Source: Tahibacter harae
GTDB lineage: Bacteria; Pseudomonadota; Gammaproteobacteria; Xanthomonadales; Rhodanobacteraceae
Assembly (NCBI RefSeq): GCF_024437735.1
Contig: NZ_JANFQO010000007.1
Location: forward strand, 1-64,000
DNA: 64,000 bases
Direction of reading: 5' to 3'
The notes under the pieces are model-generated. The model saw only the letters and a list, made by a program, of their open reading frames with translations. It was not told the origin of the DNA and ran no database searches. The first letter of the stretch is position 1; each line of letters begins with the position of its first letter. The position numbers and the translations under genes are program-made. Below, one piece after another: positions 22,359 to 49,915 of this stretch.

Positions 22359-23942
22359 TCACTCCTGCGGCGGCTTGGGCGCCGGCCTGCGCTTGCCGCC
22401 CGCCACCTTGCCCACCGCGCCGCGCCCGGGCACCGCATCGCGGCCGGGCGCGGCGCCGTTCGCGAGCAAACGCCGCGCGCAGGAATTGATCGGCCACAGG
22501 TCGCAACGGCAATCGCTGAGCTGGAAACTGTTGGCGCCGTTCTCGTCCGGGCCGTAGCCCAGCCAGCCCAGCGGTGCGTAGTGGTGCTGCACGCCGTGCG
22601 GCGGCTGCAGCTGCGGCGTGCCGCCGCCGGGCAGATGCGGCCATTCGATGTCGCCGGTGGCGACGCGGGCGGGAATCAGCCAGTAATCGCCGCTGCGGTA
22701 GCTGCCGCCGGCGGCGAAACGTATCTGCACACCATTTTCCAGGGGTATCCAATTGTCTTTTCCACCGGTGGATTCCTGCACCGGCACGGCGCCGTCGCGC
22801 AGGCGCACATCACCCGCATCGCGCTGGTTCCAGCGGCGCAGCTTGGGCAGTTTCAGTGCGGCGGGATCGGGCAGGCCGCCGTCCGGCGCGGTGATGCGCA
22901 GGCGGCCAGGCGCGACTTCGGCCACCTGCACGAACAGGCCGGGGCGGCTGTCCAGGTCGTCGCTCTCGTCGGTGATTTCCACCCAGTCGTGCAGGGCAAA
23001 ATCGCGCGAGGTGGCGACCAGCAGCCAGTCGCCTTCGCTGCCCAGCCACGGCGTGGCCTGGCTGCCGTTGTCGCGCGACCATTTGAACGTGGCCGTGTCG
23101 CCGTCGCCGCCCTGGTGGATCTCGACGCGGTATAGCTGGTTCTCCGCACCGCGGAACGCCGCGTCCGGCGCGATCTCGCAGGGGTTGCCCGGCCCTTCGG
23201 CGCTGTCCAGGCGCGCGGCGAGCCAGGCATCGCTCAAGCCTTCCAGGCCGGCCAGCGGCGCGGCGCAGGGCAGCGCCGCGCCCGGGTCCACGTCCAGTTC
23301 GGCCAGGGCCGCGTCCAGCGCGTCGATGCGCGCTTTCAGCGCCGGATCCTTGCTGCCGCCGGCCTCGTACAATTTTTGCAGACGGTCGCGCTGCTCCTGC
23401 AGGCGCTCGCGCAGATTGCGCAATTCCAGCGCCCTCACCTGCCAGACCACCTTGGCGCGGGTACAGGTGTCGGGGCCGTTCAGCGCGACTTCGCGGATGT
23501 GCCCGTCCTCTATCCAGCTGATATGCCGCTCCCACACGTCCAGGTACAGCCAGAAACGCAGGTCTTCGTCGGGCTGGCGCAGCTGCTGCAGCAAGGCGTC
23601 GCCGGGGCATTTGTTCTTCGCATCGGGTGGCTGCGGGTGGTAGTCGGGCTGGACGGCGTAGTCGCAGCCCTCGCTTTCGCAGAGGATGCCGCCGACGTAG
23701 TAGCGCCCGGCGCCGATCAGCAGCCGGTTCGGATTCGCCGCCACCGCCAGGCCGAAGCCCAGCGCATCGGCCGGGCCGCCGTAGGGGCCGATCAGGTCGC
23801 GCGCCAGGGTGCGCAGATAGTGCAGCAGGATGGCCGACTGCTCGTTCGGATCGGCGTCCAGGGTCACGCGCCCCTGCTGCATCAGCACCTGGCTGAAATG
23901 GTTGCGGCGGTCGAAGCTGATGCGGGAGAAATCGCCTTTCAT
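22359..23942 (-). CDS. DUF6519-type protein at end of eCIS operon
   Basis: A 527-residue protein starting MKGDFSRISFDRRNHFSQVL, the signature beginning of the DUF6519 family, followed by a segment with RVTLDADPNEQSAIL. The middle part (about 140-260) is partly helical (LRERLQEQRDRLQKLYEA), with a beta-rich C-terminus (TATFKWSRDNG, WVEITDESDDL). The family often sits in loci with phage-baseplate-like proteins; its role is not established. It could be a peripheral baseplate or decoration protein. The frame is open upstream of 23942, but that part is out-of-frame overlap with the neighbouring gene. Confidence 0.75.
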   Translation of the reverse strand: MKGDFSRISFDRRNHFSQVLMQQGRVTLDADPNEQSAILLHYLRTLARDLIGPYGGPADALGFGLAVAANPNRLLIGAGRYYVGGILCESEGCDYAVQPDYHPQPPDAKNKCPGDALLQQLRQPDEDLRFWLYLDVWERHISWIEDGHIREVALNGPDTCTRAKVVWQVRALELRNLRERLQEQRDRLQKLYEAGGSKDPALKARIDALDAALAELDVDPGAALPCAAPLAGLEGLSDAWLAARLDSAEGPGNPCEIAPDAAFRGAENQLYRVEIHQGGDGDTATFKWSRDNGSQATPWLGSEGDWLLVATSRDFALHDWVEITDESDDLDSRPGLFVQVAEVAPGRLRITAPDGGLPDPAALKLPKLRRWNQRDAGDVRLRDGAVPVQESTGGKDNWIPLENGVQIRFAAGGSYRSGDYWLIPARVATGDIEWPHLPGGGTPQLQPPHGVQHHYAPLGWLGYGPDENGANSFQLSDCRCDLWPINSCARRLLANGAAPGRDAVPGRGAVGKVAGGKRRPAPKPPQE

Positions 23943-23982
23943 GTCCGTATCCCTTTGTATACCTGTGTGACGGTGACGGCGC

Positions 23983-26142
23983 TCAGTTGACGAAGACCAG
24001 TTCCACCTGCATGCCGGCCGGGGTGTATTCGGCCAGGCGCGCGCGCAGGTTGGCGCTGCGCTGGGGCTGGTACAGGTGGTGGAAGGCGCCCATTTCGGAT
24101 TCGTCGTCGGCGCCGCGCACGATCTCCGCGGCGCAATCGGCGGCGAGCTGGGCATAGCCGGGCTGGCCATAGCGGCGCGCGGTGAAGCGCGGCCGCACGC
24201 GAGCGCGTTCCAGCGCGATGCGCTGCTCGATGCCGTCGCCGCCGCCGGCGCGCACGGCTTCGGCCACGCCGTCGGGCTGGCAGCGGTGGCGCCGCGGCGT
24301 GCGGCAGCCGGCCGGCACGTAGCTGTAGCGCAGGCAGCCGATCTGGCGCCGCGCCACGTGTACGCAGGCGCTGAAGATACTGTTCTCGCCCAGCGCCAGC
24401 GCATGCAGCTCGACGATGCCGAAAATCGTGCTGCGGCGTATCGTCGCCAGCACATGGGCGACGCGGCCGGGCGCACCGCCGGTGATGGCTTCGCGCCGGT
24501 CCGAAGTCGCGTCGATGATGCTGTCGGCGATGTCCAGCCGCAGCGGATCGGCCAGCACCTCGTCCTGCTGCACCACGATGGCGCCGAGGATGCTGTGGCT
24601 GATGCGTACGCGGCCGCGCAGCTGGGCCAGTTCCAGGCTGGGCTCGGCCGGCCGGCGCGGTTCGCAGCGGCAGTCCAGGCCCCAGCCCGGCACCAGGGTG
24701 CAATGGCGTATCAGCAGCTCGCCCGGGCATTCCTCCGCCGCCGGCCGGCCGCTCACGCGCAGCGGCCTGCCGGTGACCAGCAGGCCGTCGAGGCTGAAAC
24801 GGCTGCGGCTGCCCAGGCTGACGGCAAAGGCGTCGGGCAGGTCGGTCTGCCAGTCGATCAGGCGCAGCACCGGGCGTGTGCGCGGCGCGGCGCGGAGTTG
24901 CAGCGTCTTGTCATTGTCCACCTGTATATTCAGCGGCTCGACATAGACGCCGCTGTCGCACAGTTCGATCACGGCGTCGTCGGCGCCGTCCTTCTCCCAG
25001 CGCAGCAGCGCGTCGGCGATGCGGCCGTAGTCCTGGCCGCGGCCGACGCGGTACAGGCGCTGCACGCGCCCCGGCCGCAGCGGCGGCTGCAGCAGCGGCC
25101 GCGCGTATTCGCCGCCGCCCATATCGGCGGAAAAGCCGTAGTGGTAGCTCACCCGCACGCCCTTCTTGGGCAGCTGGCCGGCCGGAAAGGCAAAACGGCC
25201 GAGCACCGGATCGACCGCGATATGGCCATTGGGCACGGCGTAGCGCCAGTCGGACAGATCGGCCGCGATCAGCTTCTCCGCCGGCACCGGCTGGTCGGAC
25301 TTGAAGCCGGCCCAGCCGTCGGCCCACAGCAGCAGGCTGTGTTCCGGCCCATAGAAATCCGCAATGCGCTGCTTGAACGCGAGCCGGCGTATCGGCGCCG
25401 GAATGTTTTCCTCGCCGGCGATATGCGCCGGATCGTTCTCCGGCAGCGGCTTGCGCCACAGCGGCGCGTCCTGGCCCAGCACGCTGAAGCTGAAGCAATG
25501 CGGGCCGCTTTCTTCCACGCAGCAGGCCGCGGTCGCGGTCACGCTGTAGCGCTGCAGGCGCCAGGCATACACCGTCACCGCAGCGATGTTCACGCCGCCG
25601 CGGCGCAGGTCCACCGTGCGCGCGGCGCGTTCAAACGGCGTGCCCAGGCGGTCCAGCGCATCCATCGCGCGCAGGTCGGCCAGGCGATGGCGCTGCGCAT
25701 GCGGGTGGTTGAGGTTCTGCGTCCAGGCCAGGCGCCGGTAGGCTTCCACCGCCCGCGCCGGCCAGCCGCCAATATCGCGTGCCAGCTCTTCCAGCAGGGC
25801 CAGGCTGCCCTTGCGCCGGCGCGCGCGGATCAGACCGGCGATCTCGCGCCGCGGCACCAGCCGCCGCGGCGTCACGCACGTGGATATATCCGGCGGCAGG
25901 CCGGCCTCGGCCAGCGGCACGTGGCCCAGCAGCGCGCCGATATAGGGCACGGCCCAGTCCTGCGCGGTCTCGATGAACCAGTTCTCGTACAGCTGGGCAA
26001 TATCGTCGTCGATCAGTTGCGCCTGTTCGCCGATCACGGCGAGCAGGGCTTTCAGCGGATAGCCCTGCTGCGCGTCGCGCTGGCGATGGATCGCCGGCAG
26101 CAGTTCGTACAGGCGGTCGCGCCGCAGTTCGCTCTCGGCCAT
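23983..26142 (-). CDS. Tail-protein-I-like baseplate protein with beta-helix C-terminus
   Basis: A 719-residue protein. Residues 1-110 (RLYELLPAIHRQRDAQQGYP, DDDIAQLYENWFIETAQDW) resemble the helical N-terminus of P2 tail protein I-like baseplate proteins. From about 390 onward there are regularly spaced short beta-strand repeats with embedded I/V and G/D turns (VRISHSILGAIVVQQDE, LDIADSIIDATSDRREA, ATIRRSTIFGIVELHAL), typical of a right-handed beta-helix. The combination suggests a baseplate attachment module plus a surface-exposed or binding module. Because no separate fibre gene is seen, it is a candidate for receptor contact; that is inference. It starts 4 bp after the upstream baseplate gene stops. 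Confidence 0.7.
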   Translation of the reverse strand: MAESELRRDRLYELLPAIHRQRDAQQGYPLKALLAVIGEQAQLIDDDIAQLYENWFIETAQDWAVPYIGALLGHVPLAEAGLPPDISTCVTPRRLVPRREIAGLIRARRRKGSLALLEELARDIGGWPARAVEAYRRLAWTQNLNHPHAQRHRLADLRAMDALDRLGTPFERAARTVDLRRGGVNIAAVTVYAWRLQRYSVTATAACCVEESGPHCFSFSVLGQDAPLWRKPLPENDPAHIAGEENIPAPIRRLAFKQRIADFYGPEHSLLLWADGWAGFKSDQPVPAEKLIAADLSDWRYAVPNGHIAVDPVLGRFAFPAGQLPKKGVRVSYHYGFSADMGGGEYARPLLQPPLRPGRVQRLYRVGRGQDYGRIADALLRWEKDGADDAVIELCDSGVYVEPLNIQVDNDKTLQLRAAPRTRPVLRLIDWQTDLPDAFAVSLGSRSRFSLDGLLVTGRPLRVSGRPAAEECPGELLIRHCTLVPGWGLDCRCEPRRPAEPSLELAQLRGRVRISHSILGAIVVQQDEVLADPLRLDIADSIIDATSDRREAITGGAPGRVAHVLATIRRSTIFGIVELHALALGENSIFSACVHVARRQIGCLRYSYVPAGCRTPRRHRCQPDGVAEAVRAGGGDGIEQRIALERARVRPRFTARRYGQPGYAQLAADCAAEIVRGADDESEMGAFHHLYQPQRSANLRARLAEYTPAGMQVELVFVN

Positions 26143-26145: not shown

Positions 26146-29100
26146 TCAGCTCCGCTGGTTCAGGGTGATGGTGTCGGGCACGCCGGGCAGGAAGATCGCG
26201 AGCTGGGCCGGCCGCAGCCGGCCGTGGCGGTCACGGCCACCCGCAAATGCCGGCACGTCGCCGCGGCCGGCGGCATGCTTGTGCGCCGCACCCGCGCCAG
26301 GCTGTGCGATGTCGATGATCTCGCGCGCGATGGCAGCCTGAGTCGGCAGCTCGCGCGGGCCGCCGCGGTCCTTGAGCGTGCCTCTGGAAGCCACGCCGCC
26401 GAAGGCGTCGACATCGACATAGGCCACGCCGGGCACGGCCTGGATCGCCGCAACGATTTCGCAGCGCAGCGCCGGCTGGCCCAGGCGGCGGCGCTGGAAG
26501 CCGAACTGGTCCAGCAGCTGCGCGCGCACCGCGCCGGCGACCGGCTCCCAGTGATAATCCGGCAGCAGCTGGACATTCGCCGACAGCACCAGCGCGATCA
26601 GCTCGCGCATTTCGACCCGTACCGGCTGGTCCGGATCGCCGTGGCGCTGCAGGGCCAGCAGCAGGTTGCGGTACAGGTCCGAGTCGTTGTCGATGGGCGC
26701 ATCGTCCACGCCGGCGATGCTCACATGGACCAGCTGGCGCGCGCCGTCGCTGGCCTGCACCGCGCTGGCCTTGGCGATGCCGGCGAAGCGGCGGCTGAAA
26801 TCGGCGTAGTCGGAGACGGAGACCAGCCGCTCCAGCGCCAGTACCGACAGCGGTGCGTTTTCGCGTGCCAGGTCGCGGCTTTCGCGCCCGCCGCCGCCGG
26901 AGGCGCGCAGCGGATTGACCACGCCCTTGATGCCCTGCGGCCGGGTCTGCAACTGGCTGATCTGGCCGGCGCGCACATTGCCGGCCGCGCCGATGCCGCT
27001 GCGGTAGCGCGCCTTCAGGTTCTGCACGCCGCTGGGCAGGCGCTGGCCGTTGACGCCGTCGCCGAAGGTGAGCGTGACCGCGCCGGCATCGTCGGTGTCG
27101 CAGACGAAGCTGCGCGCGGCCGCGGCCAGTTCGCTCAGCGAATCGGCCTCGTGCCAGGTCACCTCGTTCACGCGCACCTGCAAGGTACTGGCCGCGCCAG
27201 CGGCGGTGGGCGCGGCGACGAAAGTCAGCGGCGGCTGCTTCAAGGTGAAACGCTGCAGCGCCTGCGCGCCGTCGCCGGAACCCAGCACTTCTTCCACCGT
27301 CGCACCATGGGTGGCCTGCACCACGTTGCCGTGTACGGCGACGCTGGCGCGGCGGTAGCGGTAGGCCAGCCCGGTCTTGAAGCTCAGCGTGGTATGAGCG
27401 GTGTCGCCGGGCAGGTTCGGGTCGTAGCCGTGGCGCACGGCGGTAATCATCATCAGTTCGGCCGTGCGCACACCGGCGACTTCGGCGATGTCGGTGCGCT
27501 CGCCGCTGACCACGACCCAGCGGCCCGAGCGCAGCTCCTTGTACAGGCCGTCCAGCTGGATCTCGCGCCCGGCGACGTCGTCGGCGATGGGCCGCTGCGC
27601 CAGCGGCAGCGCTTCGCTCTGCAGATAGAACTGGGTCGTGCGCAGGGCTTCGATGGTGTCCGGCTCGCCCTGCCCGTTGCTCACGCGGCGCCAGTCCTGG
27701 CCGTCGGGCGTGCTCAGGTCCAGCCGCGTGGACGGCCCGCTCAGGCCATAGGCCGTGCGCGGCGCGGTGGCCAGCGCGGTGATGCGCAGCACGCGGCAGT
27801 CGCCGCCGGTGTGCAGCAGCACATACCCGTCCACGGCGAGGTTGTCGTTGGCATGTTCCAGGAAGGCGTTGTCGCCGCGCTCGTCGCCGGCGTAGCGCCA
27901 TTCGCCCCACTCATCCTGCGGCTTGAGCGTACCGGCCGGAAACGCCTTGGCATCGGCGTCGGCATCGGGCGCCTTTTCGGTGCCGTCGTAGTAGCGCGCC
28001 AGTTTGCCGGCGGTGGCGCCGAACAGGGCCATGCGTGCGCGCAGCGCATAGACGTTGCGCAGCGGCGGCGGACGCTCGTTGAGCGTGGCGCCGGACCAGG
28101 CCGCGTAATAGCCCTCGCGCAGCAGCGGCGCGAAGTTGAGCAGCAGCTGGGTGCCGGGATCGGCGTATTCGCTGAAGCCGCGCGACGTATCGCCGTTGCC
28201 CGCGGCCATCAGCTTGAGCGTCTGCTGTGCCTGCGGCGTGGCGAAGGATTCGGCCAGGCTGCGCCGCAGCGACAGGCTGTTGCGCGGCTGCGTCTTGCGC
28301 TCCACCAGCAGCGCGCCGACGAAGGCTTCCGGACTGGTCGCCGGCACGCTGCGGCTGCCGCCCTGCAACACTGCCGCAATGCCGGTTTCCAGCTCCGTCA
28401 GCAGTTTCTGTATTTCCGGCGCCGGATCCTCGCCTTCCCCGTCGCCGATGTTCGGTGCCCAGTGCTGCGGCGCCATCTGCGTGCCCAGCCGCACCGCGGC
28501 GAGGATTTCCTCGCTGCGCGCCAGCACGCCGCTGCGCCCGCCGGTGGCGGCCAGCAGCGCGGTCACCTTGGCGATGAACTCCAGCAGCAGCACCAGGCAG
28601 GCACGCAGTTTCGCCGCCAGCGGCTTGAGCCGGACCAGGCTGCGGCTGTCCTCGAACTGCGTGTCCACGCCGTCGACGGTGCGCACGGCCGCGTCCGAGC
28701 CGTCCTCGGAAAAGATGTACAGCAGCTTGTCGCCCGGGCGCAGGCCGCTGTTGACACCGCTGAGGTGCAGTTCGTCCAGCAGCATCACGGTATAGCCGTC
28801 GATGTACTGCGGCATCAGCCGGCGCGCACGCAGGTCGTTCCATTCGCGCCGGGCGACAAGTTCCTCGCTGGTCTCGAAGAACTGCGGCTGCTCGTCCGGG
28901 CCGGGAATGCTCTGCGAACGCGCACCGGCCGGCACGCTGACCGGATCGGCCTGGTTGTCATCGACGGTATAGGCCAGATACGCACTCGCCGCCACGCCGG
29001 GCCGCAGGCGGTAGCCGACCAGCCGGGCCAGCTCCAGCACCGAGCGCCGCTCGGTCGCCGTGCCCAGATAGCCTTCGTTGGCGATGCGCTCCTGGTAGAA

Positions 29101-29424
29101 GCTCAGCACGTCGCCGACGCTGGCCCAGGCGTCGAGCAGCCCCAGCGAGAAATCGTCCGCGGCGCGCGTGGTGAGTCCGCCGAGCGGACGCAGGCGCAGC
29201 GGCGTCTGGCCGTCGGCGGCGAGGCCGTCGACTTCCATCGTCGCCAGGCGCGCCTGCATGCTGGCGTAGAAACCGGCATGGGTGCCTACGCGATAGTCCA
29301 GCGCGCCCAGTCCCGGGCGATTGTGGACAGGCCGCGGCGTCAGCCGCTGCACGCCGCCGCAGCAGTCGCACGCGCCCGGGGCGCAGCCGCCGCACGTGCA
29401 GTCGTGTCCGGATTCGCAAGTCAT
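26146..29424 (-). CDS. Large putative baseplate assembly protein (gpJ-like), eCIS
   Basis: A 1,092-residue protein with an unusual Cys-rich N-terminus (ten Cys within residues 3-23, pattern CTCGGCAPGACDCC). It is followed by the putative-baseplate-assembly signature (DYRVGTHAGFYASMQARLA, FSLGLLDAWASVGDVLSFYQ, LGTATERRSVLELARLVGYR). A baseplate J/gp6-like region near 790-900 contains LTFGDGVNGQRLPSGVQNLK and KARYRSGIGAAGNVRAGQIS. In contractile systems J-type proteins form the wedge ring around the hub. The Cys cluster is likely metal-binding. It lies directly downstream of a second J-type gene (12-bp gap). Confidence 0.82.
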   Translation of the reverse strand: MTCESGHDCTCGGCAPGACDCCGGVQRLTPRPVHNRPGLGALDYRVGTHAGFYASMQARLATMEVDGLAADGQTPLRLRPLGGLTTRAADDFSLGLLDAWASVGDVLSFYQERIANEGYLGTATERRSVLELARLVGYRLRPGVAASAYLAYTVDDNQADPVSVPAGARSQSIPGPDEQPQFFETSEELVARREWNDLRARRLMPQYIDGYTVMLLDELHLSGVNSGLRPGDKLLYIFSEDGSDAAVRTVDGVDTQFEDSRSLVRLKPLAAKLRACLVLLLEFIAKVTALLAATGGRSGVLARSEEILAAVRLGTQMAPQHWAPNIGDGEGEDPAPEIQKLLTELETGIAAVLQGGSRSVPATSPEAFVGALLVERKTQPRNSLSLRRSLAESFATPQAQQTLKLMAAGNGDTSRGFSEYADPGTQLLLNFAPLLREGYYAAWSGATLNERPPPLRNVYALRARMALFGATAGKLARYYDGTEKAPDADADAKAFPAGTLKPQDEWGEWRYAGDERGDNAFLEHANDNLAVDGYVLLHTGGDCRVLRITALATAPRTAYGLSGPSTRLDLSTPDGQDWRRVSNGQGEPDTIEALRTTQFYLQSEALPLAQRPIADDVAGREIQLDGLYKELRSGRWVVVSGERTDIAEVAGVRTAELMMITAVRHGYDPNLPGDTAHTTLSFKTGLAYRYRRASVAVHGNVVQATHGATVEEVLGSGDGAQALQRFTLKQPPLTFVAAPTAAGAASTLQVRVNEVTWHEADSLSELAAAARSFVCDTDDAGAVTLTFGDGVNGQRLPSGVQNLKARYRSGIGAAGNVRAGQISQLQTRPQGIKGVVNPLRASGGGGRESRDLARENAPLSVLALERLVSVSDYADFSRRFAGIAKASAVQASDGARQLVHVSIAGVDDAPIDNDSDLYRNLLLALQRHGDPDQPVRVEMRELIALVLSANVQLLPDYHWEPVAGAVRAQLLDQFGFQRRRLGQPALRCEIVAAIQAVPGVAYVDVDAFGGVASRGTLKDRGGPRELPTQAAIAREIIDIAQPGAGAAHKHAAGRGDVPAFAGGRDRHGRLRPAQLAIFLPGVPDTITLNQRS

Positions 29425-32059: not shown

Positions 32060-32416
32060 CTACGGCGTATGGCCGAAGCTGGCGCTGCGTTCCTCGCCGC
32101 TTTCGCGCACGCGGTATTTCAGGTCCACCTGCAGGCGCGAATCCCGCGCCGTCACCTCCAGCTCGCGCACTTCGATCACATCGCCCAGCCAGCGCTGCAG
32201 CGCCGCCTGCAGGGTGAACTGCAGCGTCGCCGCGAGTTCGGGGCTGTTGGGCGCGAACACCAGCTGCAGCAGGCCGCTGCCGAAATCCGGCCGGTTCACG
32301 CGCTCGCCCGGGCTGGTGAAGATCAGCTGCTCGATCAGGTCGCGCACGTGGTCGTCGCGGCCGGTACCGGCGCTGTGGCCGCGGCTGTCGAAGTGGTAGG
32401 GAAAGTCGATGTCCAT
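32060..32416 (-). CDS. gp25-like baseplate protein, eCIS
   Basis: A 118-residue protein of the GPW/gp25 family (T4 gp25, Afp9/Pvc9). Signatures are VRDLIEQLIFTSPGERVNRP and DFGSGLLQLVFAPN, followed by a helix and a C-terminal strand region. gp25 proteins nucleate sheath assembly on the baseplate wedge and have no lysozyme activity in contractile systems. A strong AGGAGG ribosome site lies just before the start. Confidence 0.92.
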   Translation of the reverse strand: MDIDFPYHFDSRGHSAGTGRDDHVRDLIEQLIFTSPGERVNRPDFGSGLLQLVFAPNSPELAATLQFTLQAALQRWLGDVIEVRELEVTARDSRLQVDLKYRVRESGEERSASFGHTP

Positions 32417-32425: not shown

Positions 32426-32779
32426 TCACAGCGCCATGACGCGCAGCTGCATCGCCGCCACGATGGGCGGCCCTTGCGGAATCTGTTCCGGGCTCTGGCA
32501 CAGCGCCGGTGCCGGCCCCGTGCCCGGCGGCGGCTGCAGCAGCGGCGCCTGCCCCATGACCAGCACCCGCGCCGCCGGCATGGCCCATTTCACCAGCACG
32601 CAGGGCTGCGGCTTGCCGGTGGGCACGGTGAAGGGACAGCCGGCCACGACCAGCTGCGCCGTCACGGTCGCCACCGCCTGACCGGAGACCAGCACCCGCG
32701 TCTGCGTCGGCACCACGTTGACCGGCGCGCCATGGGTACATTTGCACTGTGCATTGAGATGGAAAAAGAAACCCGGCAT
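32426..32779 (-). CDS. PAAR-like spike-tip protein, eCIS
   Basis: A 117-residue protein starting MPGFFFHLNAQCKCTHGAPV, with a later segment AGCPFTVPTGKPQPCVLVKW and a final SPEQIPQGPPIV. This Cys/His-bearing beta pattern is the PAAR-like (Afp10-type) tip family found next to gpV spikes in eCIS loci. It would cap the spike and pierce the target membrane, with Cys/His residues probably holding a metal ion. Confidence 0.8.
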   Translation of the reverse strand: MPGFFFHLNAQCKCTHGAPVNVVPTQTRVLVSGQAVATVTAQLVVAGCPFTVPTGKPQPCVLVKWAMPAARVLVMGQAPLLQPPPGTGPAPALCQSPEQIPQGPPIVAAMQLRVMAL

Positions 32780-40261: not shown

Positions 40262-40791
40262 GCGCCCAGGCTCCGATGCAGCGCGCGGGCGAGTGCGCGA
40301 CCGACGCTGGCCGCATCGGCCGCGGCGGGCAAGGCCAGCTCCAGCGCGGGCAATCGGGCCAGCGCGCCGCCCTGGCTCAGCACCGGCGGCTGCGCGCCGA
40401 ACAGCTGCAGCAATTCCTGCACCAGCGCCGCGCGCAATGCGCGTTCGCCGCCGGCCATGCGCGGCAGGCCGTCGATGACGAGACGGTCTATGCGCAGTTG
40501 CAGCGGTGCGGCGGCCGCAAGCGGGTCGTGCGCGTTGGGCGCAGCGCTGGACAGCGCCGTGGCTGGCGCTGTCGCGGACACCCGCGAAGCCGGTCCGGAC
40601 AGGGCGGCGTCGGCGAAGGCGGACAGCCGCTGTGCATCCGCCGCCATGCCGGCAGCCGTTGCAGGCCGCGCATCCCGCCGCGCTTGAGCAGTCGGCACTC
40701 GCGTGTCCGGCGCTTCGCCCGCCGCCGGCTGCCCATCCGCCGGCGCAGCTCCCGCCGCCGTCGCCCTGCCCTGCCCAATTGCCGCGCTCAC
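40258..40791 (-). CDS. Small conserved-looking eCIS protein of unknown function
   Basis: A 177-residue protein with a GTG start overlapping the AAA+ gene stop (GTGA). The first 85 residues are Ala/Pro-rich and low-complexity. The rest contains LQLRIDRLVIDGLPRMAGGE, a helix RALRAALVQELLQLFG and LPALELALP. I have the impression of a family frequently adjacent to DUF4157 genes, but name no function. Its position between ATPase and cargo genes makes a cargo-loading or chaperone role possible; this is inference. Confidence 0.65.
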   Translation of the reverse strand: MSAAIGQGRATAAGAAPADGQPAAGEAPDTRVPTAQARRDARPATAAGMAADAQRLSAFADAALSGPASRVSATAPATALSSAAPNAHDPLAAAAPLQLRIDRLVIDGLPRMAGGERALRAALVQELLQLFGAQPPVLSQGGALARLPALELALPAAADAASVGRALARALHRSLGA

Positions 40792-42887: not shown

Positions 42888-44197
42888 GGCTGCACCGTCA
42901 GGATCTGGGCCGGATCGACCTCGAAACGCCGCGGCGCTTCCTGCAGCAGCACCGGCAGGCTGTCGATGCCGTCCACCCGCAGGCGCACCAGATAGCTGCC
43001 GGCGTCCAGTCCTTCGATGACGAAGCTGAGCAGGCTGGGCTGGCCAGGCTGGGCCGGCGTGGTGATCTGCACCGGCGCAATCTCGCGGTCGGCCAGCAGC
43101 AGGCGCGCCTGGGCGTGCTGCTGCGGCTGCAGGCGCGGGCTGCAACTCAATGCCAGCGCCACCGTGCCCGGCGCGGCGGTGACGGGATCCAGCACGATGC
43201 GCGGCGCCAGCACCAGCGACACACTGTTGCTGGACCAGTCGGGCCGGTCGCCGGGTTCGTCGTGATGCAGCGCCGCCTGGTAGACGCCGATGGCCCAGTC
43301 GACCAGCGCGCCGGCCGCATCCGGCGCCGGCAGCTGCGCGGCCAGTCCCTGCCCCGCCGCCGTCACCGGCAATGTGTTGCGCAGCCCGAAGCGCGCACAG
43401 TCCAGCACCAGGCTCACGCCGGCGCCGCCGCGCAGTGCGTTGCCGCTGATGGCCAGCAAATCGCCCAGCCGCGCCGCCGGCAGCTGCGGCGAGGCGGCCG
43501 GCCGCACCGCGGCGAGGAAGGCCGGCGGCTGCGCCTGGGCCTGCGGGCCGCGGTCGTTCTTGCCCCGCTGCAGCACCGGCGGCGCAGCCTTGGCCGCGGC
43601 CTTGCCCTGGATCAGCACCACCGAGACCAGATAGGCCATGGACGGCCGGTAGTGGGCCTGCAGCGAAGTCCACAATTTGGACAATTCCTCAGTGCCGAGG
43701 AACACCGGCGTAATCTTGATCTGCTCGATCTGCTCGGCAAGGTCGGCGGCCGAATGCGGGCCGAACGGCCCCTGAGGATCCAGCTCGGGCACCGGCGAGG
43801 GCGAGCCCAGCGCCGTGCGCAGCTGGCCGCGCGTGAGCACCGGGTTCTCGTGCAGCAGCTGCATGGCATAGCCCAGCAGCACTTCCGCGTTCAGATCGGC
43901 CGCGCCGTAGGCGCTCAGCAGGTAATGCAGATCCAGCGCCAGCGGCGGATTGGACAGCGCCGTACCGCGCGCATCCCGCGCCGGCAGGCCGGCGTTGCGC
44001 CAGCCCAGGTTGGGCGTGACCTGGTAAAGGAACAGGTTGATCTGGTTGCTTTCGGTCTGCCCGGTGGTGATGCGGTCCGGCGGCAGTGCGCTGACGCTGA
44101 AATTGGTCGCCAGCGGCGGGTCGTAGTCGATCAGCCCGTTGTTGAGCAGATCCTTGAGCGTCGCCGTGACCGCGGCGATGGCGAGCGCACTGCTCAT
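42884..44197 (-). CDS. DUF4255 tail-terminator-like protein (Pvc16/Afp16)
   Basis: A 437-residue protein. The N-terminal DUF4255 domain (1-190) has VTATLKDLLNNGLIDYD, NQINLFLYQVTPNLGWRNAG and LDLHYLLSAYGAADLNAEVL. The C-terminal part (240-437) is beta-rich with Ig-like strands ending GSYLVRLRVDGIDSLPV. In PVC/Afp the N-terminal domain caps the sheath-tube end. It overlaps genes on both sides by ATGA, showing tight translational coupling. Confidence 0.9.
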   Translation of the reverse strand: MSSALAIAAVTATLKDLLNNGLIDYDPPLATNFSVSALPPDRITTGQTESNQINLFLYQVTPNLGWRNAGLPARDARGTALSNPPLALDLHYLLSAYGAADLNAEVLLGYAMQLLHENPVLTRGQLRTALGSPSPVPELDPQGPFGPHSAADLAEQIEQIKITPVFLGTEELSKLWTSLQAHYRPSMAYLVSVVLIQGKAAAKAAPPVLQRGKNDRGPQAQAQPPAFLAAVRPAASPQLPAARLGDLLAISGNALRGGAGVSLVLDCARFGLRNTLPVTAAGQGLAAQLPAPDAAGALVDWAIGVYQAALHHDEPGDRPDWSSNSVSLVLAPRIVLDPVTAAPGTVALALSCSPRLQPQQHAQARLLLADREIAPVQITTPAQPGQPSLLSFVIEGLDAGSYLVRLRVDGIDSLPVLLQEAPRRFEVDPAQILTVQP

Positions 44198-45063
44198 GGG
44201 CGGCCTCCGTGGCGCGCGCGCAGGTAGTCGGCCAGGCCCAGCTTCGGCGCCGCGGGCCGCGCGGCACGCTCGGCCGCAGCCGGGGCGGTTGCGCGCAATT
44301 CGATGCGGCCGATATGGATGCTGACGGCCGGCGGCGGTGCGGGTGCTGCGGGCGCTGCCGGCGGCGCCGCCGCCGTACGCAGTGCCGCAACGACAGGTAC
44401 GGCCGGGCGCAATGCGGCGGGCGCCGGTTCGCGCGCCGGCAGGGCCGCGTGCAGCGCGGGCGCGGCGGCCAGCCGGGTTTCGACGATGGCAGTGGGATGC
44501 GGTGCGGCGTGTTCCGGCGTGACGACGGTACGCGGCGGCTCGGCTTCGCGCGGCTCGCGGCCGACTTCGCGTGACAGCGGCGGCGTTTGTCCGCGCTCTT
44601 CGCCGGCGCCGGGCGCAGCGCGGCGCCGCAACGGCATTTCCGCAGCCGGAAGCCGCGGTGCAATGGCAGGCGCTGGCGCCGGTGCCGGGCCCGCGGGAAC
44701 CGGTGCGACGCCTCGCGCAGCGGCGTCTGGCGCAGCCTCGTGCCGAGCGCTGCGCGGCGATGCGCTGTCGGCGGCGGGAACCGGCTGCGCCGGCGGCGGC
44801 CCGGGCCGCAGCGCCGCGCTGTCGGCAACGCTGTGTTGCGCCGTTACCTGCCGCATCTGCGCCGGTGCCCGCGTGAACGCCGGTGCCGGCGGCGCGGACT
44901 GCGCGACCGGCGCCTCCGCACCGACCGCCGGCGTCGGCCCTGCCGTCGAAGTGGATAAATCCACCATTCCCTCGGCCGGCTCGAACAGCGAGCGCCGCCG
45001 CCGCTGCAGCAGCGGCGTGCGTTCCGCAGCGCGATCCAGCAGGTTGGCCAGGTGTCCGCTCAT
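44194..45063 (-). CDS. Ala/Pro-rich eCIS protein with short conserved C-terminus
   Basis: A 289-residue protein that is mostly disordered (Ala, Pro, Arg repeats). Only the ends look structured: LLDRAAERTPLLQRRRRSLF at the start, and at the end VSIHIGRIELRA followed by LGLADYLRARHGG. The pattern resembles proteins I associate with eCIS loci, next to the DUF4255 gene, but the function is unknown. A tether between baseplate or sheath parts is only a guess. ATGA overlaps with both neighbours support translation from 45063. Confidence 0.7.
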   Translation of the reverse strand: MSGHLANLLDRAAERTPLLQRRRRSLFEPAEGMVDLSTSTAGPTPAVGAEAPVAQSAPPAPAFTRAPAQMRQVTAQHSVADSAALRPGPPPAQPVPAADSASPRSARHEAAPDAAARGVAPVPAGPAPAPAPAIAPRLPAAEMPLRRRAAPGAGEERGQTPPLSREVGREPREAEPPRTVVTPEHAAPHPTAIVETRLAAAPALHAALPAREPAPAALRPAVPVVAALRTAAAPPAAPAAPAPPPAVSIHIGRIELRATAPAAAERAARPAAPKLGLADYLRARHGGRP

Positions 45064-45788
45064 GCGCGCAGCAGCTCCAGGTAGAGCTGGCGCCGGGTCG
45101 GGCTCAGACGCAGGATTTCCTGCTCGCTCCAGCCGTAGGCCCGGGCCAGGCGGTCCACTTCGGCCAGGGTGCGCCGGGCCCAGTCGGACAGCTCGCCCCA
45201 GAAATACGCCACGATGTCGAAACCCAGGCGCCAGGCATGGCCGCAGGCGGGACAGCTCAGGCCCAGGCGCACATCCGCATCGGGATCGGCCGCGGCCATG
45301 GCGTCGGCGATGCCTGCCGCCGCGTCGTCGGGCAATGCCTCCGGCGCGATCGTGCGCCGCCCCTGGCGCGCCTGGACGATGCAGCGGCGCAGCAGCGCCC
45401 GTTTCGCATCCGCGCCGGCCGCTGCGGCCTGCAGCAGGTCTTCCGTCGTCGGCAGGCGGTAGGCCGCGCTGCAGCCGGCACCCTGCCAGTGCAGCGGCTG
45501 CGCCGGCGGCGCGGGTTCGCGGCTGCGGATATCGGCAGCGAGAAAATCCGCTTCCAGCCGCTCGCCGCAGCGCGGGCAGTCGGCGACGGTGCGCAGCTGC
45601 GGCCCGAACAATTCCTCGAACAGGCGCAGCAGCCAGGCGTCGCGCACGCCCACCGGCACCTGCGCCCAGGCCAGCGCATCGGCCTGCGGCCAGGCCGCTT
45701 CCAGCAGGGCCAGCGCGCGGCGCAGCGGATGCGCGGCGTGGTGGCGTTCCCACAGGTTCAGCAGTTGCTCGGCGCCGGGAACCGTCAT
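45060..45788 (-). CDS. Zinc-ribbon eCIS protein of unknown function
   Basis: A 242-residue protein with two Cys pairs, CPRCGE and CPACGH, likely one zinc ribbon interrupted by about 100 residues. An N-terminal helix bundle holds LWERHHAAHPLRRALALLEA and a C-terminal helical part holds LARAYGWSEQEILRLSPTRR, a form seen in phage baseplate-associated small proteins that sense tail assembly. The ATG at 45788 overlaps a possible micro-ORF stop (ATGA); a TTG at 45830 is an alternative. Confidence 0.7.
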   Translation of the reverse strand: MTVPGAEQLLNLWERHHAAHPLRRALALLEAAWPQADALAWAQVPVGVRDAWLLRLFEELFGPQLRTVADCPRCGERLEADFLAADIRSREPAPPAQPLHWQGAGCSAAYRLPTTEDLLQAAAAGADAKRALLRRCIVQARQGRRTIAPEALPDDAAAGIADAMAAADPDADVRLGLSCPACGHAWRLGFDIVAYFWGELSDWARRTLAEVDRLARAYGWSEQEILRLSPTRRQLYLELLRA

Positions 45789-45958
45789 GGTGGCTGGTGG
45801 CCTGTCGGGGAGGAATGGGCGTAGGGACAACGAACGACGCAGCGCACAGGACGACGCCGCAGCGCCAGGCCGGCAACCCCCGCCGCCGGCCAGGCAAGCG
45901 GCGCGTCCTGCACGCTCAGGACCCGCGGGCTGCCGGCGATGGATCCGTCAGCGGCCAT
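45785..45958 (-). CDS. Possible 57-residue micro-protein in eCIS operon
   Basis: A short frame between tube and zinc-ribbon genes, ending in an ATGA overlap with the latter. Sequence is MAADGSIAGSPRVLSVQDAP at the start, then a hydrophobic Ala/Gly/Leu patch and an Arg/Cys-rich tail. No family is recognised. The operon has few other gaps, and the stop-start overlap is the only real support; it could be chance in GC-rich DNA. Confidence 0.3.
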   Translation of the reverse strand: MAADGSIAGSPRVLSVQDAPLAWPAAGVAGLALRRRPVRCVVRCPYAHSSPTGHQPP

Positions 45959-45965: not shown

Positions 45966-46496
45966 TCACGGCGGATCCAGGTAACCCGGCTCGGCCGGCT
46001 CCGGCGTCTCCGGATCGCGCTTCCAGCCCTCGTTTTCCAGCTTGATGTGCTGGATGGCGACGGCATTGGCGTTGGCATCCAGATCCGGCAGCGCCTGGAA
46101 TTCCGAGACCCAGCAGCGATAGACGAAATAGCGCAGCGCGAGCTGGCCGGCTTCGTTGAGCACTTCGATCACGATGTCCTTGCGGAAATCCTTGAGCGAG
46201 GACTCCATGCCCAGGCCGGCCTGGAAATTCCATACCTTGTTCGCCCACTGCTCGAATTCCTTGTCGTGGGTGACGCCGCGCTCCAGCGTGATCGCCTCGA
46301 ACTCGGTGCGGCCGGGCGATTTGCGGCTGCTGCTGGGATCGCCGCCGTCGCGGTGCTTGACCACTTCGGTGGTGCGCTTGAGCGCGCTGACCTTGCTGAT
46401 GCCGGCCACCGGCGCGGTGCTGCCGACGAACTTCACCAGGAATTTGAAATTCTTGTATGGATCGAAACGTTGCGCGTTGATCGTGAACTCGGCCAT
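45966..46496 (-). CDS. Inner tube protein (gp19/Afp1-like)
   Basis: A 176-residue T4 gp19-family tail tube protein. Signatures are DPYKNFKFLVKFVGSTAPVA, GISKVSALKRTTEVVKHRDG, RTEFEAITLERGVTHDKEFE and a C-terminal FVYRCWVSEFQALPDL. It would polymerise into the hexameric inner tube through which cargo travels. A GAGGAAG ribosome site precedes the ATG. Only one tube gene is present, whereas Afp/PVC have several tube paralogues. Confidence 0.95.
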   Translation of the reverse strand: MAEFTINAQRFDPYKNFKFLVKFVGSTAPVAGISKVSALKRTTEVVKHRDGGDPSSSRKSPGRTEFEAITLERGVTHDKEFEQWANKVWNFQAGLGMESSLKDFRKDIVIEVLNEAGQLALRYFVYRCWVSEFQALPDLDANANAVAIQHIKLENEGWKRDPETPEPAEPGYLDPP

Positions 46497-46512
46497 GACT
46501 CTTCCTCACCCT

Positions 46513-48222
46513 TCAGACGTCGATCTGCCCGGCCATCTGCTGCAGCTTGATGACCACGAACTCGGCCGGCTTGAGCGGCGCGAAACCGACCACGACATTC
46601 ACGATGCCCAGGTTGATGTCGTTCTGCGTCGTGGTTTCCTTGTCGCACTTGACGAAATACGCATCGCGCGGCGTGGCGCCCTGGAATGCGCCCTGGCGGA
46701 ACAGGTTGTGCATGAAGGCGCCGACGTTGAGGCGGATCTGCGCCCACAGCGGCTCGTCGTTGGGTTCGAACACCACCCACTGCAGGCCGCGGAACAGGCT
46801 TTCCTCGATGTACAGCGCAGTGCGCCGCACCGGGATGTATTTGTATTCGTCGGCCAGCAGGTCGGCGCCGCGCAGCGTGCGCGAGCCCCAGACCACGCGG
46901 CCGCCGGCCGGGAAGGAACGCAGGCAGTTGATGCCCAGCGGGTTGAGGTCGCCGTTTTCGCGGTCGGTCAGCGCCACCGACAGTTGCGGCACGCCGTTGA
47001 GCGTGGCGGCCAGGCCGGCCGGCGCCTTCCACACGCCGCGCTCGGTGTCGGTGCGCGCGAACACGCCGGCGATGGTGCCGACGGCGGAGAAAGTCTCCAG
47101 CCGGAAATCGCGGAACGGATCGGGCTGGCGCAGGCGCGGGAAGAAGATCGCCGCGTTGCGGCTGCGCGTGCCGACTTCGTCCGGATTGGCGCCGAAGCCG
47201 GTCACCGCCTTGGCCGCGCTGGTCCACGGCTTGGGCGAATCCACCAGCAGCATGGCGCGGCGGCGCTCGCAGTAGGCGGCGGCTTCGCTGACCACGACCG
47301 GATCCACGTCGGTGGCATCGGTGGGCGCGCGGTACGGCGGTATGCACAGCAGGTTGAACAGGTCGGCGTCTTCCAGCGCGTAGAGGCCTTCCTTTTTCTT
47401 GTCGTCCTTGAGGAACTCGGCCGGGCTGAGCCAGGCGCCGTCGGAGATCTTGCCGAGCAAGGTATTGAGCGCCTCGGCCAGCTTGCCCTCGGCCGTGGTC
47501 ACTTCGCCGCGCAGGGCGGTGACGTCGGCATCGGGATCCTCGATCAGCTTGTTGCGCAGCGCATCGCGCTTCTGCTTCAGCGTCGCCTCCTTGGTGCTGA
47601 GGTCGTCGCTGGCCGGATCGGCGGGAATTTCCGGCAGATCGTCGGGATCGCTGAGATCGCCGGTGAACAGCAGCAGCGAGGAACCGGCCTTGAGCACCTT
47701 GTCGACGCGGCGCTGGCTGTCCTTGACGGTGAGGTTGAGCCAGGTCTCGCTCTCGCCGCGGGCGCTGTCGCTGACCACGACATTGAACAGGTCGGCCTTG
47801 GTCGCCGCCGGTCCCAGCAGCTGTTTGGCCACGGCGTCGGTGGTGCCTTCGCGGTGCACTTTCACGCGCAGGCCTATGCCCCAGCGCCCGGGGCTGTTGG
47901 CGGCGAATTCCAGCCCGCCCAGCTTGAAGGCCATGGTCGAGTCCTTGCCTGCCTCGGCCTTGTACAGGCGCACGACGATGGCCTTGGCGCCGCCGTTGAG
48001 GAAGAAATCGCGCACGGCGAAACCCAGGCCGTCGTCGATGGACAGGCCGCCGAACAGGCTGACGAAATCGCCGAAGCTGTTGACCGTGGTCGCTTTCTCC
48101 ACCGGCCCGCGCAGGGCGCGGCCGACGAATGCCGTGATCGACGTGGCGACGCCGGTGATGGTGCGCACGCCGCTGGGAATTTCCTCGACGTATACGCCCG
48201 GATAGGTCAGCGTCGATGGCAT
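46513..48222 (-). CDS. Contractile sheath protein
   Basis: A 569-residue tail-sheath protein. The N-terminus is typical (TYPGVYVEEIPSGVRTITGV, TSITAFVGRALRGPVE), as is the C-terminal domain (EYKYIPVRRTALYIEESLFR, NDEPLWAQIRLNVGAFMHNL, VGFAPLKPAEFVVIKLQQ). An insertion at about 205-258 is charged and helical (KEATLKQKRDALRNKLIEDP, then GEVTTAEGKLAEALNTL), predicted coiled coil and perhaps displayed on the sheath surface. The ATG at 48222 follows GGAGGAG. Only one sheath gene is present. It is the first large structural gene of the operon. Confidence 0.95.
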   Translation of the reverse strand: MPSTLTYPGVYVEEIPSGVRTITGVATSITAFVGRALRGPVEKATTVNSFGDFVSLFGGLSIDDGLGFAVRDFFLNGGAKAIVVRLYKAEAGKDSTMAFKLGGLEFAANSPGRWGIGLRVKVHREGTTDAVAKQLLGPAATKADLFNVVVSDSARGESETWLNLTVKDSQRRVDKVLKAGSSLLLFTGDLSDPDDLPEIPADPASDDLSTKEATLKQKRDALRNKLIEDPDADVTALRGEVTTAEGKLAEALNTLLGKISDGAWLSPAEFLKDDKKKEGLYALEDADLFNLLCIPPYRAPTDATDVDPVVVSEAAAYCERRRAMLLVDSPKPWTSAAKAVTGFGANPDEVGTRSRNAAIFFPRLRQPDPFRDFRLETFSAVGTIAGVFARTDTERGVWKAPAGLAATLNGVPQLSVALTDRENGDLNPLGINCLRSFPAGGRVVWGSRTLRGADLLADEYKYIPVRRTALYIEESLFRGLQWVVFEPNDEPLWAQIRLNVGAFMHNLFRQGAFQGATPRDAYFVKCDKETTTQNDINLGIVNVVVGFAPLKPAEFVVIKLQQMAGQIDV

Positions 48223-48270
48223 GGTGTTCTCCTCCGCGAAGGTTGGCGGCACGGCGCAGCGCCACGCCGG

Positions 48271-48543
48271 TCAGTTCAACAAATTTCCCGGCACGGCCGG
48301 CCCGGTGCGCAGGGCATACAGTTCACGGCCGTCGGGCAGCACGTCGCGCCGCAGCGCGCCACAGCGCACCAGCGCCTGCAGCACCGCCTCGACGTGTTCG
48401 CGCTCAGCCTCGAAACGCTGCAGCGGAAGCCACCAGCGCAGGATGCCGTCCAGCGTGTCGGCGGCAGCCGGATGCCGGTGCAGATACGCCAGCACCAGCG
48501 CTTCCACATCGACTGCCGCCTGCCCCGCCCCGTTGCGTTTCAC
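48271..48543 (-). CDS. Small winged-helix-like protein preceding the sheath gene
   Basis: A 90-residue protein from a GTG at 48543, with a GGGAG ribosome site 9 nt upstream. A TTG at 48612 would add 23 residues of unlikely sequence. The core ALVLAYLHRHPAAADTLDGI, then EREHVEAVLQALVRCGALRR and LPDGRELYALR has the helix-helix-wing pattern of winged-helix domains. Placement before sheath suggests a regulator or assembly factor; no function is known. Confidence 0.6.
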   Translation of the reverse strand: MKRNGAGQAAVDVEALVLAYLHRHPAAADTLDGILRWWLPLQRFEAEREHVEAVLQALVRCGALRRDVLPDGRELYALRTGPAVPGNLLN

Positions 48544-48862
48544 CCGCGCTGCTCCCTTGCGAGCCTGCAGCCCGAATACGCAAGAGACGGGCCAGCGCCG
48601 GAAACTAGTCAATTTGTTGATTTGATTAGTTGTTCACAATACTTAATGTGCCGGGTTGGGTCGGGAAAGCCTCAGGCGGCCGCGCGCACCCTCTCCAAAC
48701 ACATGAATTTGCGATGATTTCAGGAATGTGGCACGGAGCGGTGCGGCGGGTCAGGATTGACCCGGGGGCGTGAGAGCCGGAATTCGGGCTCGACTCCACC
48801 CCATACGGATACCGGGATCGGCCTCATGAGCACCGAGGCGCATTGATCGCCGCTCCCTCACC
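48544..48862 (-). promoter_or_regulatory. AT-rich region upstream of the eCIS structural operon
   Basis: About 320 bp without a convincing gene between the activator gene's hairpin and the first small eCIS gene. The segment 48605-48655 is strikingly AT-rich for this genome (AATTTGTTGATTTGATTAGT) and contains TTGTTCACAA, so it is the likely operon promoter region. I looked for a -24/-12 sigma54 element on the minus strand and found none with correct spacing. TGGCACG at 48729 is on the plus strand with one base too many. Confidence 0.4.
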
Positions 48863-48908
48863 CAACCCTCTCTCCCAAGCGCACGAATGCGCTTGGGAGA
48901 GAGGGTTG
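48863..48908. repeat. Perfect 21-bp inverted repeat (hairpin) after activator gene
   Basis: Arms 48863-48883 and 48888-48908 are perfectly complementary with a CGAA loop. The core CCCTCTCTCCCAAGCGC/GCGCTTGGGAGAGAGGG resembles palindromic intergenic repeats abundant in Xanthomonadales. No T-run follows on either strand, so it may attenuate or protect RNA rather than terminate alone. It sits 9 bp after the activator stop. Confidence 0.8.
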
Positions 48909-48916
48909 AGCGGCGG

Positions 48917-49915
48917 TCAAGCCATGCCCTGGCGAAAATCGCGCCCGTCTATCCCGTGCTTCTTCAGCAGCTTTCCCAGCTGCCGCCGCTCGGTGCCGCA
49001 CAGCCGCGCGGCTTCGCTGACATTGCCGTAGGAATGGCGCATCAGTTCGGTGAGATAGCCGCGCTCGAAAGTGGCGATTGCACGCGCCTTGGCCACAGTG
49101 AAAGGCGAGATGGCGCCGTCCTGCGCCGCGGCGGGTTCTGCGGCGGCCAGGGCCGGCAGCACCAGGGACAGTTCGGCCACGCCGATTTCCTCCTGGCTGC
49201 CGTGCAGAAAGGCGCGCAGGGAGACATTCTCCAGTTCGCGCACATTGCCGGGCCAGGCATAGGCGCGCAGCCGCTGCAGTGCCTGCGCCGACCAGCGCTT
49301 GGCGGCCGCGCCCATGCGTCGCGCGGCCTGGTCGAGAAAATGCTGGGCCAGCTGGGCCACATCGCCGCCGCGTTCGCGCAGCGGCGGCAGACAGACGCAG
49401 AGCGGGCTCAGGCGGTAATAAAGGTCGTGCCGGAAGCGTCCGGCGCGCACCAGGGATTCCAGCGGCGCGTTGGTCGCGGCAACTACCCGCACATCGGCCT
49501 GAACCGACTGGCTCTCGCCGACTGGCCGGTAGCAGCGGTCCTGCAGGAAGCGCAGCAAGGTGACCTGGCCCTTGCCCGAAAGCGCGTCCACCTCGTCCAG
49601 GAACAGGGTGCCGCCGCGCGCATGGTCGACCAGCCCGGCGCGCGCCGTGCGCGCATCGGTGAAGGCGCCGCGGCGGTGGCCGAACAATTCCGCTTCGATC
49701 AGGGTGTCGGGCAGCGCGCCGCAGTTCACCGGCACGAAGGCCCGCGCCCGCCGCGGACCGGCGTAGTGCAGCTGGCGCGCGGCCAGCTCCTTGCCGGTAC
49801 CGGTCTCTCCCTCGATCAGCACCGGCGCATCGCAGTCCGCATAGCGCCGCAGCAGACGCACCGCCGTGCACAGGCTTTCCGACGCGCCGATCATCAGCTC
49901 GTCCAGGTCGGTCAT
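48917..49915 (-). CDS. Sigma54-dependent activator lacking a receiver domain
   Basis: A 332-residue AAA+ enhancer-binding protein. Walker A is GETGTGKE (36-43), the loop-1 motif is GAFTDA (83-88) instead of consensus GAFTGA, and Walker B lies within GGTLFLDEVDAL (101-112). Then come RFRHDLYYRLSPL and WPGNVRELENVSL. A Fis-type HTH is at the C-terminus (GNVSEAARLCGTERRQLGKL). There is no N-terminal sensory domain, so activity is set by level, partners or upstream inputs. The ATG at 49915 has a GGAGG site. It is codirectional with and 370 bp upstream of the eCIS operon, so it is the likely regulator of that locus. Confidence 0.85.
   Translation of the reverse strand: MTDLDELMIGASESLCTAVRLLRRYADCDAPVLIEGETGTGKELAARQLHYAGPRRARAFVPVNCGALPDTLIEAELFGHRRGAFTDARTARAGLVDHARGGTLFLDEVDALSGKGQVTLLRFLQDRCYRPVGESQSVQADVRVVAATNAPLESLVRAGRFRHDLYYRLSPLCVCLPPLRERGGDVAQLAQHFLDQAARRMGAAAKRWSAQALQRLRAYAWPGNVRELENVSLRAFLHGSQEEIGVAELSLVLPALAAAEPAAAQDGAISPFTVAKARAIATFERGYLTELMRHSYGNVSEAARLCGTERRQLGKLLKKHGIDGRDFRQGMA

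Follow-up and report, generated by a model that had tools for sequence, protein, structure and literature searches.

What switches on an extracellular contractile injection system (eCIS)? The question is raised by a locus of Tahibacter harae lying within the 64,000 nucleotides analysed here (positions 1 to 64,000 of contig NZ_JANFQO010000007.1; hereafter the window), for which an earlier note, made from the sequence alone, had proposed an injection-system locus on one strand with an activator of its own. Both proposals hold up. Twenty consecutive minus-strand genes run from 48543 to 22359, with core families recognised by Pfam and NCBIfam, and a sigma-54 activator gene lies upstream at 48917-49915; all features described below are likewise on the minus strand unless stated otherwise. 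The activator is tied to the operon by a predicted promoter, a leader gene and the activator phylogeny and, more weakly, by a palindrome that is its putative binding site. The probability that the operon is switched on through sigma-54 by this dedicated activator is put at roughly 80%, and the control parts concerned (leader gene, sigma-54 promoter and palindrome) go beyond what the earlier note had listed.

A -24/-12 sigma-54 promoter-like site (TGGCCCGTCTCTTGCG), identified by consensus score and conservation, occupies 48594-48579, with 35 bp separating it from the leader gene's start codon, and this predicted site has the GG-N10-GC arrangement in a TGGCAC/TTGC context. The sigma-54 consensus was fixed before the loci were scored. 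In the first set of loci, a site scoring at least 18.5 was present within 130 bp of the leader gene in 32 of 35 cases, compared with 0.29 expected from Markov shuffles. The second set, made up of 12 new class genomes with strong leader matches, yielded a site of at least 18 within 160 bp in all 12, two marginal leader matches in class genomes having no such site, and the third, drawn from previously unexamined relatives, yielded a site of at least 18.5 at all 11 sheath-adjacent leader genes. Over the first two sets, 44 of 47 loci carry a site of at least 18, corresponding to 17 of 20 clusters at 60% identity, against a background of 1.9% of the 8,670 windows tiled over the same 47 loci, true sites included. 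Eleven further leader copies gave a site in two cases, and over all leader genes scored the site stands directly upstream in 57 of 69. Duplicate loci (L088, L092, L090, L118, L001 and L082) were left out of the counts, as were L099, which has too little upstream DNA and was scored later as L211, and the marginal leader matches L150, L151 and G132, of which L150 and L151 have no sigma-54 site. The leader genes of L092 and L090, from genomes of the window's family, are identical to those of the named Rhodanobacter loci L046 and L027, respectively, in keeping with a host among the Rhodanobacteraceae. When the window was searched with a stricter sigma-54 pattern, one site was returned elsewhere, at chance level, and its own promoter was missed because that site ends in G. 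No sigma-70 promoter was found in 48200-50600, and an inverted repeat near the promoter (AACTAATCA...TGACTAGTT, about 48603-48631) was set aside because the relatives listed do not have it there.

The activator is a bacterial enhancer-binding protein of 332 residues, assigned by Pfam (Sigma54_activat, 2.2e-61), by its motifs and by its clade, and consists of an AAA+ sigma-54 interaction domain from residue 8 and a Fis-type helix-turn-helix (HTH), with no N-terminal sensor domain. PspF has the same architecture of AAA+ and HTH only, but the window's activator, at 247 bits, stays far below the PspF cut-off of 444. Its reading frame opens directly with the AAA+ domain, as in most Rhodanobacter, while in Nitrospira and others some 130-190 extra in-frame residues lie upstream of AAA+; these extensions gave no Pfam match in the four proteins scanned and look like a degenerate receiver. 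In a maximum-likelihood tree, 27 of 30 eCIS-linked activators, together with the orphan G198C218, form one clade (99/100) that spans four phyla and stands apart from 24 background activators, and the possibility that the activator is a mere neighbour was rejected because the activators form this one clade. The genome (5.99 Mb in 79 contigs, 99.5% complete) encodes nine strong sigma-54 activators and one RpoN, and when 27 eCIS-adjacent activators from other loci are compared with these nine, 25 have the window's protein as their best match, the exceptions being L009 and L066, with L059 matching only narrowly. In the reverse direction the eCIS-adjacent gene was the best match in 10 of 14 genomes; the misses were L009, L059, L066 and L065, and for L065 the orphan activator with its own leader gene (G198C218) ranked first. 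Two of the 12 genomes without an adjacent activator (L010 and L030) carry the gene instead at the operon's 3' end.

The leader gene (48271-48543), which has a GTG start preceded by AAGGGAG, heads the operon between the activator and sheath genes and encodes a protein of 90 residues for which neither Pfam nor NCBIfam gave a match. Iterating its profile over the loci recovered 40 open reading frames (ORFs), duplicates included, and Y20, P25, D29, G33 and W38 are invariant in an alignment of 32 leader sequences. AlphaFold2 predicted a helix-helix-helix-strand-strand order (pLDDT 73.7, pTM 0.57), and the profile weakly matches winged-helix chains of eS25, Fur and MarR (one eS25 chain at 4e-5, the others at 0.04 or worse); model and profile suggest a winged-helix-like protein. 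A scan of 369 class genomes found the gene in 15 (13 strong, including the window, and two marginal), and Pvc16_N is present in 10 of the 13 genomes with it, compared with 20 of 356 without. Among 197 relatives the gene is strong in 30 and marginal in one; a sheath match occurs in 26 of the 30 genomes with the gene and in 20 of the 167 without, and in 24 of the 30 it lies within 3 kb downstream.

That the leader protein might serve the structure or assembly of the particle, and not its regulation, is in keeping with its gene directly preceding the sheath or Pvc16_N gene in most loci. We consider this unlikely, given that in L119 the gene is next to the activator at the operon's far end, that it adjoins the activator in type VI secretion system (T6SS) loci and also adjoins activators near which no CIS genes were found (L120, L190 and L191), and that its predicted secondary structure is winged-helix-like. 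Because the protein accompanies the activator even where the locus is a T6SS or an orphan, it is read as regulatory and most likely binds the control region or the activator as a feedback partner.

The palindrome GGGTCA-ATCC-TGACCC at 48748-48763 is a perfect copy of the pattern GGGTCA-N4-TGACCC; it starts 169 bp before the promoter, with 153 bp between the two, and is the only exact copy in its own genome, where the backward control pattern was found twice. The window also has a poor copy (8 of 12 positions) at 79 bp. Among 37 non-Nitrospira loci, at least 10 of 12 positions match in 25 (0.28 expected), at least 11 in 17 (0 expected) and all 12 in five, although these null expectations are optimistic, the palindromes having been spotted by eye and then scored on the same loci. 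A second form, GCGGCA-N4-TGCCGC, reaches at least 11 of 12 positions in all nine Nitrospira loci, which are close kin, compared with 0.01 expected. The recognition helix of the Nitrospira activator differs as well (KERRSFQRLLRKYGI in Nitrospira, TERRQLGKLLKKHGI otherwise), which fits co-evolution of the activator HTH and its site. A third form, GGACA-N4/6-TGTCC, was seen in the control regions of L207, L209, L210 and L060, at about 144-166 bp.

Besides this optimistic null, several observations weigh against control of the operon by this activator. The window promoter has C instead of the usual A at one position, and 12 of the 69 leader genes scored have no site (L045, L039, L056 and L192-L200), nine of these being T6SS-type or orphan loci (L192-L200). 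The leader gene is absent from 20 of 30 Pvc16-bearing class genomes. The sigma-54 contact loop reads GAFTDA in the window and GAYTSA or GAYTDA in other clade members, GAFTGA having been read only in L060 and L065, and the eCIS-adjacent activators of L009, L059 and L066 fall outside the clade. The palindrome mostly starts 77-81 bp before the promoter in relatives, compared with 169 bp in the window, and only three of 11 fresh loci reach at least 10 of 12 positions (those at 11), the others having 8-9. In the window alone, a copy with at most one mismatch arose in 20 of 100 shuffles. The exact GGGTCA pattern was found in six of 13 other genomes, at eight places of which four are at an eCIS promoter, and the backward control at six places, about as frequently; eight Nitrospira genomes together have the exact pattern 22 times, seven of these (in five genomes) at an eCIS promoter, and the backward control 16 times, again about as frequently. 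Because exact patterns and backward controls are about equally frequent, the palindromes inform by place and not by rarity.

These points bear on the alternative that the eCIS is an ordinary one, that the neighbouring activator serves something else, and that promoter and palindrome are chance matches. Unrelated activators do adjoin an eCIS at L009, L059 and L066, and motif matches are cheap in one genome, as the backward control and the shuffles illustrate. The sigma-54 site, however, recurs at a near-constant place, fresh loci included (11 of 11 and 12 of 12), the activators form one clade, and in most genomes the leader gene heads eCIS or T6SS operons; this alternative is accordingly regarded as very unlikely, and dedicated control through sigma-54 is preferred.

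Under dedicated sigma-54 control, the following sequence of events can be proposed. The activator (48917-49915) would bind the palindrome at 48748-48763 and, having no sensor domain, would therefore be controlled by its own amount or by a partner. By looping, it would remodel sigma-54 RNA polymerase at 48579-48594, a step that draws on the conserved sites. The operon would then be transcribed, with the 90-residue winged-helix-like protein as its first product and a presumed feedback partner. Homology suggests that a phage-tail-like particle would then be assembled from sheath, tube, spike, wedges, terminator and ATPase, loaded with two DUF4157 cargo candidates (D1 and D2) and aimed via a DUF6519 fibre. 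The gene content, the motifs with their conservation and the activator clade are observed; that the operon is expressed, that binding takes place, what the small protein does, and the release and target of the particle are predictions. Between the activator and the operon lies a perfect hairpin with a 24-bp stem (48860-48912; minimum free energy -48.7 kcal/mol, z -12.7), which may part the activator and operon transcripts as a terminator, or may be a REP-like element.

As judged by homology, the machine itself is an eCIS and belongs to an already known kind, because its relatives share a tube and a T4-baseplate gene while phage sheaths are distant. Scanning genome contigs with the sheath gave 337 candidate stretches, of which 271 are relatives; the 80 best of these are 51-64% identical and come from bacterial and archaeal loci (Proteobacteria, Nitrospira, Cyanobacteria, Acidobacteria, Verrucomicrobia, Chloroflexi, Myxococcus and methanogens). 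The tube is present in 101 of 101 loci and the T4-baseplate gene in 96 of 101, a total that includes the window's own (two) and some duplicates. The common core of the eCIS set (Afp, PVC, MAC, AlgoCIS and the eCIStem set), namely sheath, gp19 tube, gp25 and J wedges, OB spike, Pvc16_N, AAA+ and eCIS_core, is shared by the window, which differs in having one sheath gene, TIGR02243 wedges, a DUF6519 fibre candidate and a sigma-54 control module, and in that its tape measure was not recognised. Afp and PVC have several sheath genes; the single sheath gene that had been claimed for this locus agrees with the whole-genome search, in which the window's sheath had a single match at an E of 0.001 or better and Pvc16_N likewise a single one.

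A prophage remnant or tailocin would account for the phage families matched by the sheath, the tube and one wedge. Pvc16_N, an AAA+ ATPase and two eCIS_core proteins nevertheless share the operon, none of the 185 phage records that match the sheath covers 80% of it, and the eight among the matches listed do not exceed 35% identity and align to no more than half of it. Capsid, terminase, lysis and T6SS membrane families were not found among the 20 locus proteins and 20 flanking ORFs scanned, the latter being part of the flanks and including some overlapping alternative frames; TssBC sheath, TssF/G and the T6SS membrane complex were likewise not found among the locus proteins scanned. The flanking ORFs with families (metE, LysR, GlcNAc epimerase, PfkB kinase, GH92, HipA, M19 dipeptidase, Hsp70-like and M36 protease) are housekeeping, regulatory or secreted enzymes. 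A prophage or tailocin was rejected on gene content, housekeeping flanks and distant phage sheaths, and is hardly tenable. The earlier note's statements that capsid, terminase, lysis and T6SS membrane genes are missing, and that AAA+, DUF4255 and DUF4157 set the locus apart from prophage and T6SS, agree with these results, all three families having been matched and the ATPase and DUF4255 proteins giving their expected profiles. Neither of the two outcomes that the earlier note had named as refuting its reading was obtained.

The structural genes follow the leader gene in the order given here. The sheath (46513-48222; Phage_sheath_1 1.8e-10, Phage_sheath_1C 1e-9; PHROG tail sheath) and the tube (45966-46496; Phage_T4_gp19 2.1e-42) are followed by a T4-baseplate-like or hub protein (45060-45830), weakly matched at 24.0 of 24.5 bits and conserved in position, and by a Pro/Ala-rich protein of 289 residues (44194-45063) with homologues in other loci. 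The Pvc16_N (formerly DUF4255) tail terminator (42884-44197; 2.3e-53) precedes a Pvc15-like AAA+ ATPase with an N-terminal winged-helix variant domain (40788-42887; AAA 7.3e-25) and a protein of 177 residues (40258-40791) whose gene has 4-bp overlaps at both ends. Beyond the cargo candidates D2 (37799-40261) and D1 (35798-37795) lie a CIS_tube-like tube initiator (34786-35439), under the curated cut-off at 7e-4 and 19.8 of 27 bits, a small hub protein at the LysM position (34451-34774), a hub protein at the gpD position (33317-34444), a gpV-like OB spike protein (32790-33320; Phage_base_V 2.6e-15), a tip protein at the PAAR position (32426-32779; weak DUF4280/PAAR), the gp25 wedge (32060-32416; GPW_gp25 9.8e-18) and two baseplate assembly proteins matching TIGR02243 at 3.8e-84 and 1.9e-90 (wedge 1, 29437-32037; wedge 2, also Baseplate_J, 26146-29424). 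A tail protein at the tail_P2_I position (23983-26142), with no Pfam match and with homologues at the same place, and the DUF6519 fibre candidate (22359-23942; 1.2e-83) complete the operon.

The earlier note's assignments of sheath, tube, gp25, wedges, DUF4255 and AAA+ were thus recovered, while its CIS_tube initiator fell below the cut-off and its LysM, gpD and PAAR proteins had no significant family match (best E 0.026-0.34), these labels being kept because of position and of similarly placed homologues elsewhere. Of the many 4-bp overlaps it had described, six were counted at 19 gene junctions. Parts that it had not listed are the eBAP5 fibre gene, the transpeptidase-bearing DUF4157 protein and the 177- and 289-residue genes. 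Pfam gave no family for the 289-, 177- and 719-residue proteins. No tape-measure gene was recognised in the operon (22359-48543), which also counts against the proposed reading; tube length must be set somehow. Elsewhere in the window, a HipA-like kinase with a small upstream ORF (10048-11567) is a possible HipBA toxin-antitoxin pair, and a large M36 fungalysin-type metalloprotease gene lies near the eCIS on the plus strand (53610-56891).

Both cargo candidates carry eCIS_core (formerly DUF4157; 2.9e-32 and 1.4e-31 in the two proteins), and PDB sequence searches with D1 and D2 gave nothing useful. D1 combines it with domains of no family and a second HExxH motif (HELGH) near the C-terminus. 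D2 combines it with a YkuD L,D-transpeptidase domain (4.8e-10), SHGCVRL being present in the sequence, and a weakly matched C15-like tail (E 0.015). In available excerpts of the eCIS survey (PMC8213781), EAT6 appears as an L,D-transpeptidase among the antibacterial eCIS toxins, with the row mark 'Within protein', taken here to mean DUF4157; it resembles D2 in this description, comes from another organism, and differs from D2, which has the extra weak C15-like tail. DUF6519 is described as eBAP5, a fibre marker, in available excerpts of PMC12923769, and the window's gene lies, as in the fibre group described there, downstream of the wedges and the tail_P2_I-position gene, but no variable C-terminal binding domain could be named in it. 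The candidates bear on whether the machine is released at all, since it might instead act within the producing cell or at its membrane, as do tCIS and Streptomyces CIS, described as intracellular in available excerpts of PMC8894136 and PMC12923769; cyanobacterial loci do occur among the sheath relatives. The DUF6519/eBAP5 fibre candidate found in place of the tCIS crown domain argues otherwise, and the peptidoglycan-type enzyme domain in the cargo fits an attack on other bacteria without proving it. Action within the cell or at its membrane is considered possible but less likely than release as a particle.

The activator and leader gene also occur together beyond this type of eCIS. Among the 13 strong class genomes, Pvc16_N lies within 5 kb of the leader gene in 10, four in the window arrangement and six with Pvc16_N directly after the leader gene, in an Afp-like order. 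In G571 the leader gene heads a T6SS operon (VipA/VipB, Hcp, gp25, TssF, TssG and GPD), and G315 and G457 gave no sheath-C or Pvc16_N match, the leader gene of G457 lying near a contig end. Among 11 other leader copies in relatives, eight adjoin the activator and a T6SS. These T6SS loci (L192-L199), which have a TssBC-like sheath, have no sigma-54 site before the leader gene; a related site of TGGCA-N6-TTGA/TTGT type, with TTGA or TTGT for TTGC and hence without the usual GC, scores 17-18 at 86-114 bp before the sheath gene in all eight, a count made with no null comparison. The GGGTCA palindrome was not found in them (7-9 of 12 positions). Their activators nest inside the eCIS-activator clade (98 SH-aLRT, in a quick tree without bootstrap), a second tree from which L143, a short sequence, and eight close relatives were left out. 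No match to the eCIS and T6SS queries was found in the 13-15 kb examined at L190, L191 and L200; L190 and L191 have activator, sigma-54 site and leader gene, followed in L191 by several genes, one of 1320 residues. At L120 (G198:C218), activator, leader gene and sigma-54 site stand beside ORFs that look methyltransferase- and P450-like by eye, and the window's eCIS structural genes were unmatched on its 11-kb contig. We lean, by a little, towards a single transferable cassette, in which a sigma-54 activator, either sensorless or extended at its N-terminus, is combined with a 6-4-6 palindrome, a -24/-12 promoter and the winged-helix-like leader protein, and which would be a master switch common to eCIS subtypes and T6SS in at least four phyla, with HTH and site co-evolving.

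Available excerpts of the eCIS survey (PMC8213781) name GerE, BTAD and RfaH regulators and 'yet unknown signals'; as in the window, these regulatory genes adjoin eCIS operons, but no sigma-54 activator with a -24/-12 promoter is among those named there. VasH and RpoN of T6SS offer a parallel in control, a sigma-54 activator driving a contractile injector as proposed here; the window differs in being an eCIS with a winged-helix-like partner, and its activator clade also serves T6SS in Rhodanobacteraceae relatives. No report of sigma-54 control of eCIS was found among the papers listed by the literature searches, which leave out most subscription papers, and the passages available from a sigma-54 regulon survey (PMC12316311) name T6SS and do not contain the word 'contractile'. 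The sigma-54 control module of the eCIS (activator, leader gene, promoter and palindrome) looks new on this basis, and the leader protein is a useful marker for finding such loci. What turns eCIS on is largely unknown, and a defined promoter, a candidate site and an activator make the question directly testable. The module provides a handle for inducing particles where the eCIS is silent and ties eCIS to the sigma-54 logic known from T6SS; if the common cassette is real, eCIS and T6SS may respond to the same kind of signal.

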